Below are positions 27,003 to 34,703 of a DNA stretch of 64,000 nucleotides, piece by piece. The position numbers and the translations under genes are program-made. A model generated the notes under the pieces. That model saw nothing but the letters and a program-made list of their open reading frames with translations. It was not told the origin of the DNA and did no database searches. The stretch is from Aggregatilinea lenta (GTDB lineage Bacteria > Chloroflexota > Anaerolineae > Aggregatilineales > Aggregatilineaceae): contig NZ_BFCB01000003.1 of assembly GCF_003569045.1 (NCBI RefSeq), positions 1,736,001 through 1,800,000 of the forward strand, written 5' to 3'. Position 1 is the stretch's first letter, and every line of letters starts with the position of its first letter.

Positions 27003-27551
27003 ATGGCCCCTTCCCATGACGATGAGATCCTGGTTCTGCGCGCACAGCAGGGGGATCGGGAAGCTTTTCGCATGCTCTATGGGCTGTATCTCGACAAGGT
27101 TTACAACCGGGTGAAGAGCCGGGTGCCGCTTCAATATGTCGAAGATGTCACTCAGGACGTGTTTATCGCCGTGATCCGGTCGCTGGACAGCTACGAGCAC
27201 CGGGCGCAGTTCAACACCTGGCTGTACACCATCGTTAATCGCCAGATTGCCGATTTTTACCGCCGAAGCCACGAGCCTTCTGGCCCCGCGATCGACCTGG
27301 ATGCGAACGACTCAGCCGAAGTGGCGCTGGTCTACGATCCGGGTGATACCGAAGATTGGCCGCTCTTGCAGGTGGCATTCAATGGCCTGCCGGAGCACTA
27401 CCAGGAAATTATTCTCCTGCGATTTGCGGATGGGTTGTCGTTTGCGGAAATTGCCGAACAGCGTGCGCAGTCTCTCGAGGCCGTGAAGTCACTCTACCGG
27501 CGGGCAATACAGAGCATACGTGAGAAGCTCAATGGAACCCAACTTGAATAA
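27003..27551 (+). CDS. ECF-type RNA polymerase sigma factor
   Basis: A 182-residue sigma-70 family factor with only regions 2 and 4. Region 2 contains DREAFRMLYGLYLDKVYNRV, VEDVTQDVFIAVIRSLDSYEHRAQFNTWLYTIVNRQIADFYRR, the usual core-binding and -10-reading parts. Region 4 contains LPEHYQEIILLRFADGLSFAEIAEQRAQSLEAVKSLYRRA, a helix-turn-helix for the -35 box. It overlaps the downstream gene by 20 bases. The two are probably a sigma and regulator pair, and the Cys-repeat protein downstream is a plausible target. Confidence 0.92.
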   Translation: MAPSHDDEILVLRAQQGDREAFRMLYGLYLDKVYNRVKSRVPLQYVEDVTQDVFIAVIRSLDSYEHRAQFNTWLYTIVNRQIADFYRRSHEPSGPAIDLDANDSAEVALVYDPGDTEDWPLLQVAFNGLPEHYQEIILLRFADGLSFAEIAEQRAQSLEAVKSLYRRAIQSIREKLNGTQLE

Positions 27552-27978
27552 CGCATCTAAATTGGACGAGCGGCTGGCTGCCTTTACCGACGAGCTGCGT
27601 GCAGGGGCGGACCCGGCGACGCCCGCCGATTTGGCGTACTTCGCGCCTGTGGTGCGTGGCCTCGAACGGCTGATCGACGGCGCGCCCGCTGACGACATGG
27701 CACGCATGCGTATCACACAGGGCGTGATGGCCGCGTGGGATGCGTCGCACACGTCATCTCGCCGCCGCTGGCGTTCCCTGCGGACCCTGGAGATGCTGGT
27801 CGCCGGTTTGGGATGGGCGCTGCTGGTGGTTACCCTGCTGGCCGCCAACGGGACGGACGGCATCTCCGCCCTGGAGGGCACTGCGCTAGGCGGGCAGGCT
27901 GGTATGGCCGCGGTGGTCGTGGCGGTGTCGGCGGCGGTCGTCGGCCTTCTGTGGTGGCTGCGGCACCTCCGCGCGTGA
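27532..27978 (+). CDS. small membrane protein, probable sigma-factor partner
   Basis: A 148-residue protein whose start at 27532 lies within the sigma gene. Residues 1-75 are soluble and mostly helical; two C-terminal membrane helices (about 90-108 and 118-143) follow. There are no cysteines, so it is not a zinc-type (ZAS) anti-sigma factor with HxxxCxxC. Position and translational coupling are the only evidence that it controls the sigma factor. I recognise no family. Confidence 0.75.
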   Translation: MEPNLNNASKLDERLAAFTDELRAGADPATPADLAYFAPVVRGLERLIDGAPADDMARMRITQGVMAAWDASHTSSRRRWRSLRTLEMLVAGLGWALLVVTLLAANGTDGISALEGTALGGQAGMAAVVVAVSAAVVGLLWWLRHLRA

Positions 27979-28313
27979 CCTGTGTGAGGTTAACTCGGTA
28001 AGTACTCTAGACATATTAACAAAAACGAAAATTTCGTGAATAATGGGTCAGATAAGATCGAAAAAGGGTTCATTTATGTGACAATCATAAGTAGTAATAT
28101 CCACACACATGGCTCGATGAATGAGCTTCCGGCTGCATGGCCGGAGGATGCGAGTTCAGAAAGTTGGAGCAACCAGGGGGCAGCAGAAACCGTTTTGGGT
28201 GAATGGCATCGAGAAGTTGGCGGACCGCTTATCAATATCCGGTAGTTTCGATCTAGATTTGACCTTATCGACCATGACGCGTAATTCCGATCCGAAGAGA
28301 TAGGAGCTTATCA
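27979..28313 (+). other. 335-base leader upstream of the Cys-repeat protein
   Basis: AT-rich at its left end, with the palindrome ACGAAA/TTTCGT at 28025-28037 and a small CCGGC/GCCGG hairpin at about 28128-28143. A possible 69-codon frame (28036-28245) has no recognisable features or ribosome site and I do not call it. The right end carries a promoter (28259-28287). Confidence 0.4.
28259..28287 (+). promoter_or_regulatory. promoter of the Cys-repeat/TolB protein gene
   Basis: TTGACC (28259-28264) and TAATTC (28282-28287) with a 17-base spacer resemble a housekeeping sigma promoter. The transcript would start near 28294, giving a short leader with AGGAG at 28302-28306 and ATG at 28314. An ECF-type promoter was not obvious. 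Confidence 0.5.
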
Positions 28314-31300
28314 ATGCGGATTCGAACACCTAAAAAACCAGTCTTTCTGGTCGCAGGGATGACCTTTGTCGTACTCGTGGCTGCCGCGCTTGCATTAGGC
28401 GGCTCGAACCTGTTGGGTACGGCGCAGACGGATCCCGGTGTGCAGCGTGTTGCGCACGAGGATCCGGAGGACCAATGCTGGGACGAGGGCCATCCGGGCA
28501 TCCAGTACGAGGTTCCGGAAGGCGAAGTGCAGGACTCCCAGCGTAACTGTTACGTCCCTGGTTCGGACGTCTGTCCGAACATCGACGGCGTGCAGACTTC
28601 GGTCCCTGAGGGGATGCGTCTCAACGGTGATATGAACTGTATCCTCTACTATGACGTGTGCCTGAACATCGACGGCGAACAGACGTCACCGCCTGCGGGT
28701 TACAGCGGGCCAGATGGCAGCGGCAACTGTTATCCGCCCTCGACCGACGTGTGCCCGAACATCGACGGTGACCAGTCCGCGCCGCCGGACGGCATGATCA
28801 TCGACGGCAGCGGCAACTGTGTGACCCCACCGCCGAACACCGACGTGTGCCCGAACATCGACGGTGACCAGTCCGCGCCGCCGGACGGCATGATCATCGA
28901 CGGCAGTGGCAACTGTGTGACCCCGCCGCCGCCCACGGACGTGTGCGCGAATATCGACGGCAATCAGGCCACCGTGCCGGATGGCATGGTCCAGGATGGG
29001 AACGGCAACTGCATCACCCCGCCGCCGCCCACCGATGTTTGCCCGAATATTGACGGCAATCAGGCCACCGTACCAGACGGCATGTACCTCGACGGCAGCG
29101 GCAACTGCGTGACGCCGCCGCCTAACACCGACGTGTGCCCCAACCTCGATGGCACTCAGGAAACCGTGCCGCCGGGTATGGTCATCGATGGCAGCGGCAA
29201 CTGTGTGACGCCGCCGCCGACTATCGACGTGTGCCCCAATCTTGATGGTGTCCAGGAAACTGTGCCTCCGGGCATGATCCAGGACGCGAACGATAACTGC
29301 ATTCCCGAAGACGTCTGTCTGAACATCGACGGCGTTCAGGAAGCGGTTCCGCCGGGCATGATGCAGGACGTCAACGGCAACTGTGTCGAACTCGACCTGT
29401 GCCCGAACATCGACGGCAACCAGACCACGATCCCGGTGGGTATGGTCCTCGACGGAAACGGCAACTGCGTCATCGTTGACCTGTGCCCGAACCTCGACGG
29501 TGTGCAGTCGACCGTGCCAGTTGGCATGGCGATCGACGATCAGGGCAACTGCTCGCCTGACGTGTGCTACAACCTGCCGGGCGCGCAGGCGACTGTTCCC
29601 GAAGGTTACGTCGCGGACGCCAACAACAACTGTCTGCTGGACCTGTGCCCGAACCTCGATGGCATCCAGGAAACGCTGCCCGCGAACATGGTGGTCGATA
29701 TCGCCACGGGCAACTGCGTGACGGACTTCTGCCTCAATTTGGCGGGCTACCAGGACGCCATTCCCGACGGCATGGTGCTCGACCCGCAGGGTAACTGCGT
29801 GATGGACCTGTGCCCGAACATCGACGGCGACCAGACCGAACTGCCTGCAGGTATGCTCTTCGACGCGAACGGTAACTGCGTCCTCGACATCTGCCTGAAC
29901 ATCGATGGCCTGCAGACGGAAGTGCCGGAAGGTATGGCTCAGGATGCAAACGGTGACTGCCTGCCGGTGGACCTGTGCCCGAACATTGATGGCACCCAGG
30001 ATGTAGTGCCCGACGGCATGCTGATCGACGACAACGGCGACTGCGTGCCGGGCGATGACGTCTGCAAGAACCTGGACGGCGTTCAGGCGACCGTGCCGGA
30101 TGGCTACATGATCGATGAGAAGGGCCGCTGCGTCATCGACATGTGCCCGAACCTGGACGGCCTGCAGACGAAGGTCCCGGATCACAAGGTCCTGGATGAA
30201 AACGGGAACTGCGTCTACATCGACCTGTGCCCGAACCTGGACGGCAACCAGGAGAAGGTGCCGGACGGTAAAGTGGTCGACGCGAACGGCAACTGCGTCT
30301 ACATCGACCTGTGCCCGAACCTGGACGGCAACCAGATGAAGGTGCCGGACGGCAAAGTGGTTGACGCGAACGGCAACTGCGTCTACATCGATCTGTGCCC
30401 GAATCTGGACGGTAACCAGTCGAAGGTGCCGGATGGCAAGATGATCGACGCGAACGGCAACTGCGTGTTCATCGACGTCTGCCCGAACATCGACGGCCTC
30501 CAGACGTCTGCGCCGGAGGGTATGTACTTCGACGGCAGCGGCAACTGCGTACCGAATGACCTGTGCCCGAACATCGACGGCAATCAGGGCGCGGTGCCGG
30601 ATGGTATGGCACTCGATGCAAACGGTGACTGCGTCCCGGTGGACGTCTGCCCGAATATCGATGGCGATCAGGGCGTGTTGCCGGCTGGTATGGCACTCGA
30701 CGCGAACGGTGACTGCGTCCCGGTGGACATCTGCCCGAACATCGACGGCGATCAGGCTGCTGTACCGGCTGGTATGGTGCTCGACGCTAACGGTGACTGT
30801 GTGCCCGAAGTCGTTCAGAACCCTGAGGGGACTGAAGAACCGGCTGAAGACTGCGCCGTGAACACGGTGTCTACCGACAACGCGGGCTTCCCGGTGCTGA
30901 ACCTGGATGCGACCAACTGCGTGGACACCGTCGAGCTGCCGCGTACCGAAGCCTGGGAAGCGGTTAGCGTGGGCGAAGCCCAGTGCGTGGACTGGTTTGT
31001 GTACCACACCGATCAGACCGGCGACTGGGAAGTCTTCCGCTATGGCGAGCTGCCCGGTGACCCCGACGCAGAAGTGAACCTGACTCAGGGCGTTGGCGAA
31101 GATGTCTACGACATCGCGCCCAGCCGCTCCCCCGACAAGGGCTGGATCACGTTCTCCAGTAACCGAGACGGCAACTGGGAAGTCTACGTCGGCACGGCGG
31201 ACGGTACCGAGCAGCGGCGTGTGACCTACAACACGGTTGCGCCCGACATCGACCCGGTATGGTCGCCGGTGGGCAACAGCGTCGCCTTCGAGTCGGCCCG

Positions 31301-32012
31301 TGATGGCAACTGGGATATCTACATCCTGGATGTGGTGTCCGGCGACGTGACGCAGGTCACCGACTCTGACGCGAACGACATCAATCCCTTCTGGTCGCCT
31401 GACGGCACCAAGCTGGCTTTCCAGAGCGACCGTGACGGCCTGTGGCAGATCTACGAGCTGGATCTGAACACGCTGGAAGTCACCCTGCTGAGCGACGGTC
31501 AGGGCAACGACTACGATCCCGCGTACTCGTTCGACGGGTCGCAGGTGGTGTTCCACACCAACCGCAACAACACGAGCGAAATCTACCTGATGAACTCGGA
31601 CGGCTCCGACCCGGCGCCGATCTCCGACCCGCAGGGGAACGCTGCGCTGCCGGTGTGGTCGCCGGATGACGCTCTGATCGCGTACCAGTCGGACCTGAAC
31701 GGCACCACGAACCTCTACGTGTACGATGTTGCCACAGGCACGACGCGGCAGGTGACGGACACGAGTGTGTCCAGCTACGCGGCGACGTGGTTCTGCGACG
31801 CGCCGGTCCTGATCTTCACGTCTGACACGACGGGCGACTCGAACTTGTTCGAGCTGAACGCGCTGCCGCTGGAGGACGGACCGGTGACGGATCTGGTGGC
31901 GAACGCTACCCAGCTCACCGACGACCCGGCTAGCGACCGCTACCCGGAGAACTCGCCTTCTGAGGAAAACGCGAGCCGCGAGGGCCAGCTGCCCGCCGCG
32001 CGCCAGCGCTAA
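28314..32012 (+). CDS. giant exported protein: 26 two-Cys repeats plus TolB-like propeller
   Basis: A 1232-residue protein. Residues 10-30 form a signal-anchor or signal peptide (PVFLVAGMTFVVLVAAALAL). Residues 85-832 consist of 26 tandem repeats of 27-32 residues with consensus DxCPNxDGxQxxVPxGMxxDxxGNC; a degenerate unit precedes them. Each repeat has two cysteines 20-22 residues apart, so all may form disulfides outside the cytoplasm. The Asp/Asn-rich ends (DANGNC) look like calcium loops, which is inference. Residues about 880-1180 form six or seven TolB/PD40 blades (SPDGTKLAFQSDRDG, WQIYELD). A polar tail ends it. TolB-like propellers bind peptides or glycans. Function unknown; probably a surface or periplasmic adhesive or scaffold. 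It follows the ECF sigma factor and its partner. Confidence 0.88.
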   Translation: MRIRTPKKPVFLVAGMTFVVLVAAALALGGSNLLGTAQTDPGVQRVAHEDPEDQCWDEGHPGIQYEVPEGEVQDSQRNCYVPGSDVCPNIDGVQTSVPEGMRLNGDMNCILYYDVCLNIDGEQTSPPAGYSGPDGSGNCYPPSTDVCPNIDGDQSAPPDGMIIDGSGNCVTPPPNTDVCPNIDGDQSAPPDGMIIDGSGNCVTPPPPTDVCANIDGNQATVPDGMVQDGNGNCITPPPPTDVCPNIDGNQATVPDGMYLDGSGNCVTPPPNTDVCPNLDGTQETVPPGMVIDGSGNCVTPPPTIDVCPNLDGVQETVPPGMIQDANDNCIPEDVCLNIDGVQEAVPPGMMQDVNGNCVELDLCPNIDGNQTTIPVGMVLDGNGNCVIVDLCPNLDGVQSTVPVGMAIDDQGNCSPDVCYNLPGAQATVPEGYVADANNNCLLDLCPNLDGIQETLPANMVVDIATGNCVTDFCLNLAGYQDAIPDGMVLDPQGNCVMDLCPNIDGDQTELPAGMLFDANGNCVLDICLNIDGLQTEVPEGMAQDANGDCLPVDLCPNIDGTQDVVPDGMLIDDNGDCVPGDDVCKNLDGVQATVPDGYMIDEKGRCVIDMCPNLDGLQTKVPDHKVLDENGNCVYIDLCPNLDGNQEKVPDGKVVDANGNCVYIDLCPNLDGNQMKVPDGKVVDANGNCVYIDLCPNLDGNQSKVPDGKMIDANGNCVFIDVCPNIDGLQTSAPEGMYFDGSGNCVPNDLCPNIDGNQGAVPDGMALDANGDCVPVDVCPNIDGDQGVLPAGMALDANGDCVPVDICPNIDGDQAAVPAGMVLDANGDCVPEVVQNPEGTEEPAEDCAVNTVSTDNAGFPVLNLDATNCVDTVELPRTEAWEAVSVGEAQCVDWFVYHTDQTGDWEVFRYGELPGDPDAEVNLTQGVGEDVYDIAPSRSPDKGWITFSSNRDGNWEVYVGTADGTEQRRVTYNTVAPDIDPVWSPVGNSVAFESARDGNWDIYILDVVSGDVTQVTDSDANDINPFWSPDGTKLAFQSDRDGLWQIYELDLNTLEVTLLSDGQGNDYDPAYSFDGSQVVFHTNRNNTSEIYLMNSDGSDPAPISDPQGNAALPVWSPDDALIAYQSDLNGTTNLYVYDVATGTTRQVTDTSVSSYAATWFCDAPVLIFTSDTTGDSNLFELNALPLEDGPVTDLVANATQLTDDPASDRYPENSPSEENASREGQLPAARQR
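28566..30809 (+). repeat. coding tandem array, 26 units of about 81-96 bases
   Basis: The repeat-encoding part of the large gene. Units keep the codons for DxC...NxDG...GNC while linkers vary: early units carry Pro-rich VTPPPPT linkers, later ones two-residue linkers such as VYI or VPV. Units 3 and 4 (from about 28746) and units 20-22 (about 30222-30470) are almost identical at the base level, which indicates recent duplication within the array. Confidence 0.9.
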
Positions 32013-32099: not shown

Positions 32100-33179
32100 C
32101 TAGTTCACGGCGAAGGTGAAGGTCCACGGGCCGCTGACCGTCTGGCCCGATTCGTGGTTGGTGAAGCCGTCCAGCGTCAGGGACCAGTCGCCCGTGCGCC
32201 GAGTCAGCGCGTCCGGGATCGCCAGCGCGCGGCACGCTGCGCCAGGATCGAGCGGCGCGCCGTTCAGCCCGGTGAAGCCCGACGGTAGTCCGGTTAGCAC
32301 GCGCTCGCCGTTGACGTCCAGCGTGACGGGACTTTCCCACGCCGTCCAGGCATCGACGGCAAACGGCTCGGCGCTGCTCAGGCACAGCTCGACGCGCGTC
32401 ATCGACGGCGTGATGACGACCTTCTGGATCTCGATAGCCAGACCGGCGGCGGATGCCGACTGGCGCACGTCTACGATGCGCCCGGGATTTACCGGAACCT
32501 GGAACGAGAAGTTCGCGTCGCCCGCGAAGCCCATGATGGCGGGGTTATCGGCGCGCGTGGCGGTGGTGGTATAGGCGACCTGGAGCGTCAATGCCAGATC
32601 GAGCGTCCCCGTCCCGACGGGGACCGCGCTGGCGTCGAAGCTCATCAGGCCCTCGTGCGTGAAGGTTTCCTCGGCGCCACTTTGCTTCTGCGTGGTCTGC
32701 TGGCCGCTGGTGGGTAGCCAGGGATACGCGCGGCCCTGGGCGTCGGCGAGCTGCTGGTTGCTGTAGACTTCGACCCCGGTTCCGGCGGCGGCGCTGCCTG
32801 TGACATGGTAGCCCACGGCGATGCGGTTTGCATCCGCGTAGGCATAGTCGAGCGTTACGTCCAAACGGGTGAGCGGGTCGTCAACCGGCAGCGACTGCAT
32901 CTGGCCGAGTTGTACGATTTGATTTTCGGCCTGAACTGTGCGCAGGCCCGGATCGGGCTGGAGCAGTGTCTGCATCAGCGCGTAGACGGCACCGGTCGAG
33001 GCGGCGAGCACCACGACTAGGGCGGCGGCCCACTTCAGATTCAGGCGTGCGACGAACGGCGTGCGGGCTGGGGCAGGCACGCCCAGGCGGTCGTGTACTT
33101 TGCTGCGAATGTCCATGCTGTCAGGAATCTCCTGTTCTGCTCGTTGGGTGAGGACGTGTTTCAGGCGTTTTTCGTCCAT
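32100..33179 (-). CDS. membrane anti-sigma-like protein (DUF4179-like)
   Basis: A 359-residue single-pass protein. The ATG at 33179 is preceded by AAAAGGATC; it begins 15 bases beyond the sigma-factor stop. Residues 1-45 are cytoplasmic (DEKRLKHVLTQRAEQEIPDSMDI), a membrane helix follows at about 50-70 (WAAALVVVLAASTGAVYALM), and the remainder is a beta-rich extracytoplasmic region. This layout and the sigma-factor neighbour are typical of anti-sigma factors with a DUF4179-type domain. The N-terminus would hold the sigma factor and the outer part would sense a signal. Confidence 0.75.
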   Translation of the reverse strand: MDEKRLKHVLTQRAEQEIPDSMDIRSKVHDRLGVPAPARTPFVARLNLKWAAALVVVLAASTGAVYALMQTLLQPDPGLRTVQAENQIVQLGQMQSLPVDDPLTRLDVTLDYAYADANRIAVGYHVTGSAAAGTGVEVYSNQQLADAQGRAYPWLPTSGQQTTQKQSGAEETFTHEGLMSFDASAVPVGTGTLDLALTLQVAYTTTATRADNPAIMGFAGDANFSFQVPVNPGRIVDVRQSASAAGLAIEIQKVVITPSMTRVELCLSSAEPFAVDAWTAWESPVTLDVNGERVLTGLPSGFTGLNGAPLDPGAACRALAIPDALTRRTGDWSLTLDGFTNHESGQTVSGPWTFTFAVN

Positions 33180-33193
33180 GTGCGTGATCCTTT

Positions 33194-33745
33194 TCAACTG
33201 CCGGTGAGCAGCGCGTGCAGATGCCGCTTGGCGCTGTGCAGGCGCGATTTTACGGTTCCGACCGGGATGTTCAGGTGTTCGGCCATTTCCCTTTCGCTGA
33301 GGTCCAGGTAAAACCGAAGCACGATCACCGCGCGGCGCTCCGGCGCCAGCGCGCTCAGCGCCGCCCAGATCGCGTCCTGCGTTTCCGCCGTTTCCAGCAG
33401 GTGGTCAGGCCCAGGTGCCGGATCGGCCAGGACTGCGTCGTCGTCGGGATCGTCGTCGGCCAGGGTTTCCAGCGAGATCTGCACCTGCATGCGGCGGGTG
33501 GCGCGCAGTGCGCCGTTGACCACCGTTCGCATGAACCACGGCGCGAAGGGACGGTCGGACCGGAACGTGTGGATCGAGCGATACACGTTGACGAAGGCAT
33601 CCTGCACGACATCTTCCGCCAGCGCAGCGTCCTGCGTGATGAGAAAGGCCGTGCGGAGTGCGCGCACCTGATAGCGTTCGATGAGGGCGTCCAGAGCGGT
33701 GATGTCGCCGCGCTTCAACCGCGCGATTGTTTGCGAGTCGTTCAA
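33194..33745 (-). CDS. ECF-type RNA polymerase sigma factor
   Basis: A 183-residue ECF sigma factor. The TTG at 33745 is chosen because GGGAGG lies five bases upstream; farther upstream in-frame codons lack ribosome sites. Region 2 contains DALIERYQVRALRTAFLITQDAALAEDVVQDAFVNVYR and PFAPWFMRTVVNGALRATRR. Region 4 contains LSALAPERRAVIVLRFYLDLSEREMAEHLNIPVGTVKSRLHSAKRHL. It is encoded immediately upstream of an anti-sigma-like membrane protein, the standard pairing. Confidence 0.9.
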   Translation of the reverse strand: MNDSQTIARLKRGDITALDALIERYQVRALRTAFLITQDAALAEDVVQDAFVNVYRSIHTFRSDRPFAPWFMRTVVNGALRATRRMQVQISLETLADDDPDDDAVLADPAPGPDHLLETAETQDAIWAALSALAPERRAVIVLRFYLDLSEREMAEHLNIPVGTVKSRLHSAKRHLHALLTGS

Positions 33746-33854
33746 TGCACCCTCCCACGGTGTGAGTACCCACACTCTATATAGTTCGGGGAAGGCGAAA
33801 ACGTTCGCAGGGCAGGCGAAAAGCGGGAGATCCGTCAAGGAGTGCGGCGGTGAT

Positions 33855-34703
33855 CTACAGCGAGCGCCCGGTGAGGTAGCGCATCAGCAGGTCTTTGCGC
33901 ACGAAGAGGAAGATGCCCAGCGCAGCCAGAAAGCCGGTCAGGTGGGCGAGGTAATTCACGCCGCCGGAGTCGCTGCCGCGCATGATCGTCTCCAGCGAGG
34001 GCGCGGCGTTCTGCACTGCGAACGCGATCAACACCAGCCATGCGGGCAGCGAGATCAGCGGACTGAACACGCGCACCGGCTCGCCACCCAGCCGTCGGAT
34101 GAACGCAACCGGCAGCCGCAGGAACGCGCCGATGCCCCACAGCGTCACGATCCGCGCGCCGGGGAACAGCAGCAGGTACGCGCCCATCACCCCGGCGATT
34201 GCGCCGCTGGCCCCGATGCCAGGCAGGTCGTCCGAGGAGGGGTTGAGCAGCACGCCGCCCGCATTGGCGACCATGCCTGCGAACAGGTAAAAGGCCAGGA
34301 AGCGCCAGTGCCCGCAGGCGTCCTCGATGCGGCGGCCAAATGCCCACAGATAGACCATATTGCTGAACAGGTGCCACAGATCCGCGTGCATGAAGATGCT
34401 GGTGAACGTCGCCAGCGCGCCGATGCCTGTTGGCTGACGGACGACCGTCTCGCGGTAGCCGAATTCCCAGATCTTGGTCGTGTAGCTGCGCACAGCATCT
34501 TCATAGAGGGATGCGTCGCTGTACAGGTCGGGCGCGATCCACGCGAAGAAGATCAGCGTGTTGACCGCGATCAGGCTCAGCGTCATCCAGGGCACGGTGC
34601 GGTAGCGGATCGACCCCGCGTCGTTGACCGGCATGGGGTAGGTCAGCGTGTTCAGGAACAGGTAGAACAGCAGGGAGAACAGGAAGGTGAAGACCAGGCA
34701 CAT
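33855..34703 (-). CDS. rhomboid intramembrane serine protease
   Basis: A 282-residue polytopic protein with six or seven membrane segments. Catalytic Ser167 lies in GIGASGAIAG and His254 in YLAHLTGF; Asn115 (HLFSNMVYLW) is the oxyanion-hole residue. The region MHADLWHLFSN is typical. It cleaves membrane proteins within the bilayer. It lies 15 bases downstream of the TPR membrane protein, so cotranscription is likely. The substrate is unknown; anti-sigma factors are one class of rhomboid/site-2-type substrate but nothing here proves that. Confidence 0.92.
   Translation of the reverse strand: MCLVFTFLFSLLFYLFLNTLTYPMPVNDAGSIRYRTVPWMTLSLIAVNTLIFFAWIAPDLYSDASLYEDAVRSYTTKIWEFGYRETVVRQPTGIGALATFTSIFMHADLWHLFSNMVYLWAFGRRIEDACGHWRFLAFYLFAGMVANAGGVLLNPSSDDLPGIGASGAIAGVMGAYLLLFPGARIVTLWGIGAFLRLPVAFIRRLGGEPVRVFSPLISLPAWLVLIAFAVQNAAPSLETIMRGSDSGGVNYLAHLTGFLAALGIFLFVRKDLLMRYLTGRSL

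Follow-up and report, generated by a model that had tools for sequence, protein, structure and literature searches.

Anatomy of the repeat gene

The window analysed here is a 64,000-nucleotide stretch of the genome of Aggregatilinea lenta (contig NZ_BFCB01000003.1, positions 1,736,001 to 1,800,000), and its positions 28314 to 32012 hold a gene for a 1232-residue protein in which 26 copies of a short two-cysteine unit form a stalk ahead of a propeller domain of the TolB/PD40 type. For this protein we computed the anatomy, the family to which its unit belongs, the conservation of its anchor and head, the exchange of its stalk among relatives, the conserved cysteine pairs and the linkage to a gene for an extracytoplasmic function (ECF) sigma factor. 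It is somewhat probable, in our judgement, that the product is a membrane-anchored, exposed binding head carried on an exchangeable spacer of disulfide beads and controlled by the linked ECF factor. The parts of the gene are as follows.

28314..32012, + strand: open reading frame of the predicted surface protein, 1232 amino acids, ATG at 28314, stop at 32010-32012
28302..28306, + strand: AGGAG, likely ribosome-binding site of the repeat gene, seven bases before the ATG, read from the sequence
28314..28436, + strand: residues 1-41, basic start and hydrophobic helix ending LLGTA, a likely uncleaved N-terminal membrane anchor (13-row N-terminus alignment)
28473..28550, + strand: residues 54-79, degenerate 27th two-Cys unit with C55 and C79 (profile match at 61-79; Cys list)
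28566..30809, + strand: residues 85-832, 26 two-Cys units, one every 27-32 residues (Cys list, profile and pattern count; AlphaFold2 of the last seven units)
30810..30983, + strand: residues 833-890, linker before the propeller with the conserved Cys pair 847/869 (aligned relatives)
30984..31976, + strand: residues 891-1221, propeller of the TolB/PD40 type in which we count seven blades by eye, with C891 in the first and C1161 in the seventh (PF07676, TIGR02800 below its cut-off, TolB structures, alignment)
31977..32009, + strand: residues 1222-1232, short basic C-terminal tail (C-terminal tail sequences)

The pattern C.N[IL].G.Q is matched 26 times in the protein and at most once in any of 2000 shuffles of the same protein. 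Each of the 26 units contains a Cys pair spaced 22-23 residues, and a new unit starts every 27-32 residues. The pattern count and the Cys spacing bear out an original prediction, made for this DNA from its letters, that the two-Cys repeat occurs 26 times at residues 85-832. The figure of up to 26 disulfides given there is too low, since the 27 unit pairs, one of them degenerate, together with Cys 847/869 and 891/1161 would allow up to 29; the four extra Cys (847, 869, 891 and 1161) lie inside or beside the propeller. The stalk is acidic, with 121 Asp and Glu to 12 Lys and Arg. Adjacent units share from 44 to 99% of their DNA sequence and include near-identical pairs (units 3-4 and 20-21), which suggests that the array grew by local tandem duplication.

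Distribution and conservation of the two-cysteine unit

Profile searches, from which overlapping copies of own-genome and family loci were dropped, gathered a unit family of 207 units in 70 proteins, a count that takes in the 27 units of the window and the other own-genome and family units and includes near-duplicates (L069-L071; L030 and L031). In the alignment of the 26-residue unit, C3 (206 of the 207), N5 (206), G8 (200), Q10 (207) and P14 (201) are conserved, as is C25 (192, the remaining 15 being gaps); the loci were collected by patterns demanding D.C.N..G.Q, so conservation at those columns is partly forced, and P14 and C25 are the unforced ones. The resulting consensus, C..N..G.Q...P...C, is common to the window protein and to proteins of Patescibacteria, Chloroflexi and Demequina (L015-L077).

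A scan of 84,980 genomes returned 52 loci with relatives of the unit, of which 32 belong to Patescibacteria (12 of them Saccharibacteria), five to Chloroflexi or Anaerolineales, four to Demequina, one to another member of the Actinomycetota and one to Sumerlaeota, with nine unlabelled; these groups follow the labels of the records, candidate-phylum names being assigned by us. The closest unit match in the genome collection came from a metagenome-assembled genome labelled Chloroflexi. Eleven loci were found in the viral collection, three of them with the two-Cys units; a seven-unit query matched nothing in the phage and plasmid collections at E<=1e-3, and PHROGs gave weak unknown families only (best E 0.0018). 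A search with the unit alignment was positive in 5 of 101 genomes and in 4 of 396 genomes of the class, this genome being inside both counts, which are lower bounds since assemblies break in such arrays. The Patescibacteria, Chloroflexi and Demequina proteins carry one to nine units each, compared with 26-27 in the window protein; some of them end in lamin-tail or histidine kinase domains, and the eight of L015-L077 that were scanned by Pfam had no PD40 match.

The original prediction had also called the repeat protein new-looking, and in the databases compared this holds for the repeat: none of the families in Pfam, NCBIfam or the PDB accounts for the unit. NCBIfam had no match to the window protein's repeat, PDB sequences gave weak matches only (E 0.2 or worse), and the two relatives with five and nine units (L015 and L017) matched no Pfam family at E<=0.01. 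Pfam CLIP (PF12032) does score 28.7 bits for the whole protein against a cut-off of 20, yet none of its stretches passes alone, the best being residues 629-643, which span a unit junction and cover 15 of the 54 positions. Because no stretch passes alone and L015 and L017 are without a Pfam family, we consider the CLIP score an artefact of summing over repeats and rejected this identity as spurious. NF033662, an acidic double-disulfide repeat and thus also a named disulfide repeat, did not match the window protein at E<=1; it matches residues 182-207 of L018 (42.2 against a cut-off of 41), ahead of that protein's own two-Cys units. The portion of the open-licence PubMed Central literature available to us held no description of the repeat and no match to unit peptide strings, which is weak evidence of absence. 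By sequence comparison, then, the unit is a widespread module for which these databases hold no family name.

Several of the proteins that carry the unit deserve mention in their own right. Elsewhere in the A. lenta genome (L014:2111-4978, contig C3 near 1,812,100-1,815,000), a TadE-domain, pilus-type protein has seven two-Cys units near its C-terminus, so to judge from its sequence the beads are also present on a pilin-like protein of the same organism. Two Saccharibacteria proteins (L016:5902-8073 and L028:5818-7848) have four units after an N-terminal hydrophobic segment, and more membrane segments follow; Pfam assigns histidine kinase domains to L016, and L028 is of similar appearance. In an unlabelled uncultured bacterium (L026:5404-7359) the units stand ahead of lamin-tail domains, and a C-terminal end of the EWR type is common to several Saccharibacteria and unlabelled loci. 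The Sumerlaeota contig of the L030/L031 pair, from a metagenome-assembled genome, has a protein start and two units identical to those of an Anaerolineales contig and is likely misbinned.

Probable disulfide pairing and fold of the unit

Both Cys are kept in 22 of 22 single-unit proteins, and the linkers between units, counted up to 40 residues, run from 4 to 32. Because of these two observations each unit can be regarded as independent, with a disulfide of its own, and the bond C3-C25 is probably formed within the unit. The disulfides that had been predicted are therefore likely, given the retention of both Cys in single-unit proteins and the VKOR and DsbA-like proteins of the genome described below.

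AlphaFold2, run on the last seven units with an alignment of 23 rows, gave a model with a mean predicted local distance difference test (pLDDT) of 90 and a predicted template modelling score (pTM) of 0.45. It shows one hairpin per unit, formed by two strands of three residues each (17-19 and 25-27 in the first unit) with D-x-N-G-N between them. According to this model the local shape of the stalk is confident and the mutual arrangement of its units uncertain. Among the 50 Foldseek matches listed, the template modelling (TM) score normalised to the query was at most 0.18, with target-normalised values up to 0.26 in other rows. The top rows were LRP2/megalin, with E down to 1.8e-05, yet TM to the query was again no higher than 0.18 and the root mean square deviation was near 25; VIA-align found nothing at Z >=2 in 411 chains. 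With such low TM scores, such a large deviation and no VIA-align match at Z 2, we did not adopt LRP2/megalin or any other named fold for the unit. The absence of fold matches is in turn no proof of a new fold, the seven-unit model being small and open.

The original prediction further read the Asp/Asn loops of the repeat as calcium-binding and the array as a stiff rod, for which the thrombospondin type 3 (TSP3) wire would be a counterpart. Some observations do point in this direction. The unit opens with DxCPNxxG as the bacterial TSP3 repeat does, both are short, Asp-rich repeats, and TSP3-like motifs occur together with two-Cys units in the same proteins in three relatives (G008, G009 and G010, with TSP_3 above its cut-off in G008 and G010). 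Asp is also present at the loop position in 95% of the window's own 24 standard-length units. TSP3 units from the relatives' loci (12 bacterial-type and 96 classic) served for a comparison with the unit profile, alongside 60 permuted controls. The bacterial type aligned over DxCPNxxG only (9 columns) with a score of 15.86, above all 60 controls (12.68 or less), whereas the classic type scored 11.2, within the controls and exceeded by at least five of 60; permuted classic TSP3 with DxCP and the last two columns fixed scored up to 18.07. A distant kinship of the unit with TSP3 is possible on these alignments. However, the similarity ends after DxCPNxxG, the unit is without the DxDGDG loop, and the window protein has no match to PF02412 (TSP_3) at E<=1. 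Position 20, in the loop, is a gap in 41 of the 207 aligned units, and Asp and Glu are both absent from 13 of the 165 tails outside the window, in a tail composition count whose pattern itself forced C, N, G, Q and P. Moreover, the Asp-Asn stretch is the predicted hairpin turn of the AlphaFold2 model. A calcium-binding rod is thus highly improbable and was set aside as an account of the stalk on the strength of an unconserved loop that forms a hairpin turn, and the claim of calcium-binding loops finds no support. As for stiffness, with a pTM of 0.45 and linkers of 4 to 32 residues the stalk may be either stiff or flexible.

The propeller head

The prediction of a TolB/PD40 head with six or seven blades stands. 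Pfam PD40 (PF07676) scores 107.5 bits against a cut-off of 20.9, over five stretches, which places the domain in that family; the top PDB sequence matches of the head are TolB chains; and TIGR02800 (TolB) gives 184 bits, below its equivalog cut-off of 343.15. We count seven outer and seven inner strands, a count made by eye, two motif patterns having caught five outer and four inner strands. Because the last inner strand (DRYPENSP) sits in the C-terminal tail, the ring is probably closed in the usual strap-like way by residues 1206-1221. Among 21 aligned propellers C891 and C1161 are present in all, and C847 and C869 are both present in 18 and both missing in the same three. From this pattern of retention and joint loss we infer two disulfides, C847-C869 and C891-C1161, the latter likely stapling the ring between blades 1 and 7. 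In all, 82 columns are identical in at least 20 of the 21 aligned proteins, and across the relatives the head is conserved far more than the stalk.

Despite the likeness of its head to TolB of the Tol-Pal system (2w8b, 1crz), the protein is not a TolB. Its TIGR02800 score is too low, no TolB N-terminal domain appears among its Pfam matches, it adds a stalk of 26 units, and the genome has no match to Pal (OmpA family) or to the outer-membrane protein Omp85. The TolB propeller has six blades, compared with the seven that we count by eye.

A displayed enzyme, for example an oligogalacturonate lyase or a peptidase-like domain, would be another way to read the head. Pectate_lyase22 (40 bits, cut-off 30) and DPPIV_N (36.2, cut-off 22) both pass in the window protein, and Pectate_lyase22 passes in several relatives too. 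Both matches partly overlap the PD40 blades, however, and Pfam finds no hydrolase domain behind them. Residues 842-1232 contain two His only (898 and 1081), whereas the metal site of oligogalacturonate lyase requires three. We therefore regard an enzymatic head as very unlikely.

A conserved head on exchanged stalks

Of 18 genomes of the family, 14 contain the propeller at E<=1e-40; across the order, 61 of 154 genomes contain it at E<=1e-60, own genome counted. We compared 21 propeller proteins, 13 from the family (including a paralogue from the own genome) and eight from five other families. Both ends are available for 11 of them; eight others run off their contig, and in G017 and the own paralogue the frame is broken or the N-terminal half is separate. 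The same kind of anchor is present in 10 of the 11 complete proteins. In the 13 aligned N-termini, for which G052 was trimmed by 44 residues to a later start, GT follows the helix in 12 and LxGTA occurs in eight. With this anchor, the C891/C1161 pair and the conserved C-terminal tail as its marks, the protein belongs, as far as the alignments tell, to an order-wide class of anchor-stalk-propeller proteins.

Between anchor and head, the relatives have PKD domains, TSP3-like repeats, Ig/CARDB-like repeats or Pro/Thr-rich stretches. Pfam scans of 14 relatives' stalk proteins found PKD in five (L094, L122, L127, L172 and L175) and TSP_3 above its cut-off in three (L094, L096 and L175); CARDB passes in L127 only, and the remaining Ig-like stalks were called by eye. 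In four of these relatives (G002, G007, G021 and G028) the propeller and tail are 54-59% identical to those of the window protein and the anchor is of the same kind where the N-terminus is present, while PKD, TSP3-like or Ig/CARDB-like domains take the place of the two-Cys units in the stalk. The units are joined to a propeller in two of the 21 proteins, those of the window and G004, eight of the 21 being cut short. In G008 and G010 an anchor is followed by TSP3-like repeats and two-Cys units up to the contig end; G008 has no propeller at E<=1e-40, and in G010 the propeller is on a separate contig. Because the stalk is exchangeable while the head is conserved, evolution has probably replaced the one and retained the other, and the head probably does the work. 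The claim that no named system has this combination thus stands for the stalk and falls for the anchor and propeller, which recur across the order.

Two further forms were seen. A paralogue in the own genome (L013:5060-11020, - strand; contig C3 near 697,000-703,000) has the same propeller (54%) and an Ig-like stalk of about 1550 residues; its upstream reading frame breaks, and the gene may be split or carry an assembly error. In G062, G469 and G482, from another family of the order, the propeller lies inside open frames of 4601-6073 residues, so that very large stalk versions may exist.

Predicted anchoring and location

A hydrophobic segment precedes the first unit in 57 of 65 unit proteins with a complete N-terminus, the window protein among them, compared with 31 of 62 control open reading frames; proteins running off the contig start were dropped, and among the eight misses several narrowly fail the threshold or seem to have a wrong start codon. 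The own genome has one VKOR and five DsbA-like matches. It has no match to Omp85 (PF01103), which was positive in 7 of 14 controls, or to OmpA/Pal (PF00691), positive in 5 of 14. Because VKOR and DsbA-like proteins are present and Omp85 and OmpA are unmatched, the bacterium is probably monoderm and able to form disulfides outside the cell. The N-terminal segment and these oxidative proteins favour the extracellular location that had been predicted, and we infer a position at the cell surface; exposure on the outside is almost certain, and a cytoplasmic position very unlikely, on the same grounds.

A secreted or shed protein of the wall or matrix, with a structural role only and no receptor function, would also be outside the cell. 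The tail of the window protein has no visible C-terminal hydrophobic anchor, a long, acidic and repetitive stalk fits such a role, and other species carry the units in unrelated proteins of exported appearance. However, the N-terminal segment is conserved past the helix in 10 of the 11 complete proteins, as an uncleaved anchor would be, and the head is much more conserved than the stalk, both of which make a purely structural protein quite unlikely.

Linkage to an ECF sigma factor module

Upstream of the repeat gene are two genes that, with a small protein found at the loci of relatives, make up the neighbourhood considered here.

27003..27551, + strand: ECF-type sigma factor, likely partner gene (Pfam Sigma70_r2 and r4_2; linkage in relatives)
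27520..27978, + strand: 152-residue protein with two hydrophobic segments, probably an anti-sigma factor (beside the ECF gene in relatives)
L182:1780-2406 (- strand), L184:1376-1975 (- strand), L189:14199-14834 and L123:2157-2816: single-helix protein of 200-220 residues with an LFG-type junction after the helix

The upstream DNA of thirteen relatives was compared. With short flanks, the ECF pair was seen in G008 only of 16 loci; longer flanks show more, and in G008, G028, G066 and G087 an ECF relative on the same strand precedes the surface gene by 0.8 to 4 kb. The 152-residue protein matches no Pfam family and is recognised beside the ECF gene in G008, G066 and G087, at 29-33% identity. Searches of 11 of 14 whole genomes (G006, G010 and G017 were left out) at E<=1e-30 gave one ECF match in each of seven and none in four. 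The ECF gene is the upstream neighbour of the surface gene in five of these seven genomes, which include the own genome and span four families. A functional link between the surface gene and the ECF module is thus likely on the evidence of gene order, and because the single-copy ECF gene precedes the surface gene in five of the seven, the latter probably belongs to an ECF-controlled surface module.

Two more kinds of gene were observed at these loci. In G087 (L182:3116-4918, - strand) and G028 (L184:2751-4469, - strand), the ECF pair and the surface gene are separated by a gene for a PrsW-type protease fused to a cyclic nucleotide monophosphate (cNMP)-binding domain. The single-helix protein of 200-220 residues, which has a similar anchor, adjoins the surface gene in G001, G008, G028 and G087; three of the four were scanned and matched no Pfam family.

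The same neighbourhood could be explained by a propeller that acts as the sensor of the ECF module and relays a ligand signal via the small membrane protein to the sigma factor; in relatives the PrsW-type protease would cut that membrane protein. PrsW is known to cut anti-sigma factors. The single-copy ECF gene close upstream in the own genome and four others, its two-segment neighbour in three of these, the protease placed in between in G028 and G087, and the similarly anchored small protein beside the surface gene in four genomes would all fit a sensor. However, no ECF relative is found at E<=1e-30 in G001, G002, G005 and G052, and the gene is displaced in G056, where a different contig carries it, and in G035, where about 27 kb of the same contig separate it from the surface gene. 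The window has no match to the PrsW-like or the 200-220-residue protein at E<=1e-6, and the one pair compared, the window and G008, shares no two-box ECF promoter motif. Since the linkage fits a regulated product equally well, we think a sensor unlikely.

Proposed mechanism and its implications

In the mechanism that we favour, that of an anchored head on a bead spacer, the N-terminal hydrophobic helix would anchor the protein in the single membrane. After export the Cys would oxidise pairwise inside each unit of 26-28 residues, giving 26-27 disulfide-locked hairpin beads joined by short linkers, and this acidic string of beads would serve as a robust spacer that places the seven-bladed propeller past the cell wall. 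The propeller, closed by its own C-terminal tail and the C891-C1161 staple, would bind an extracellular protein or glycan; this putative ligand is our guess, read from the architecture. When the surface protein is made would probably be decided by the ECF sigma factor encoded upstream, together with its small membrane partner.

Several points weigh against this account. The pTM of the seven-unit model leaves the overall shape of the stalk undefined, and the seven blades rest on a reading of the sequence, a single-sequence AlphaFold2 model of the propeller having a pLDDT of 50. One of the 11 complete proteins, that of G006 (40% identical), has a different N-terminus. The control for the hydrophobic segment is crude, with half of the control frames positive, and the protein may instead be cleaved and secreted. 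The ECF relatives that are missing or displaced in six genomes and the missing promoter motif count against ECF control as they do against a sensor.

A broader proposal, which we offer tentatively and with some doubt, would make the two-Cys unit an extracellular disulfide bead, so far undescribed, that occurs mainly in Patescibacteria and Chloroflexota and serves in one Chloroflexota-like order as one among several interchangeable stalk modules that tune the reach of one conserved head under its own ECF module. If so, nature would already provide a series of stalk-swap variants of this protein, and a common building block might be present on the facing surfaces of episymbiotic Patescibacteria and their hosts. 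Naming the unit would annotate many proteins at once in Patescibacteria and Chloroflexi, whose surface proteins are poorly known. A conserved head on swapped stalks is a natural experiment on whether the stalk contributes length, stiffness or protease resistance, and the linked ECF module offers a route to the conditions under which the head is needed. A bead of 26 residues with a single disulfide is also a simple repeat for protein engineering.

Other neighbouring genes

Downstream of the repeat gene and convergent with it are a second ECF sigma gene (33194-33838, - strand) and a gene for a 365-residue membrane protein (32100-33197, - strand) that looks like an anti-sigma factor. A rhomboid protease gene (33855-34703, - strand) is also close by, and its product might conceivably cleave the anchor. 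In G001 and G002 the locus has divergent genes for a solute-binding protein and a transporter, as in the window, at 69-75% identity.

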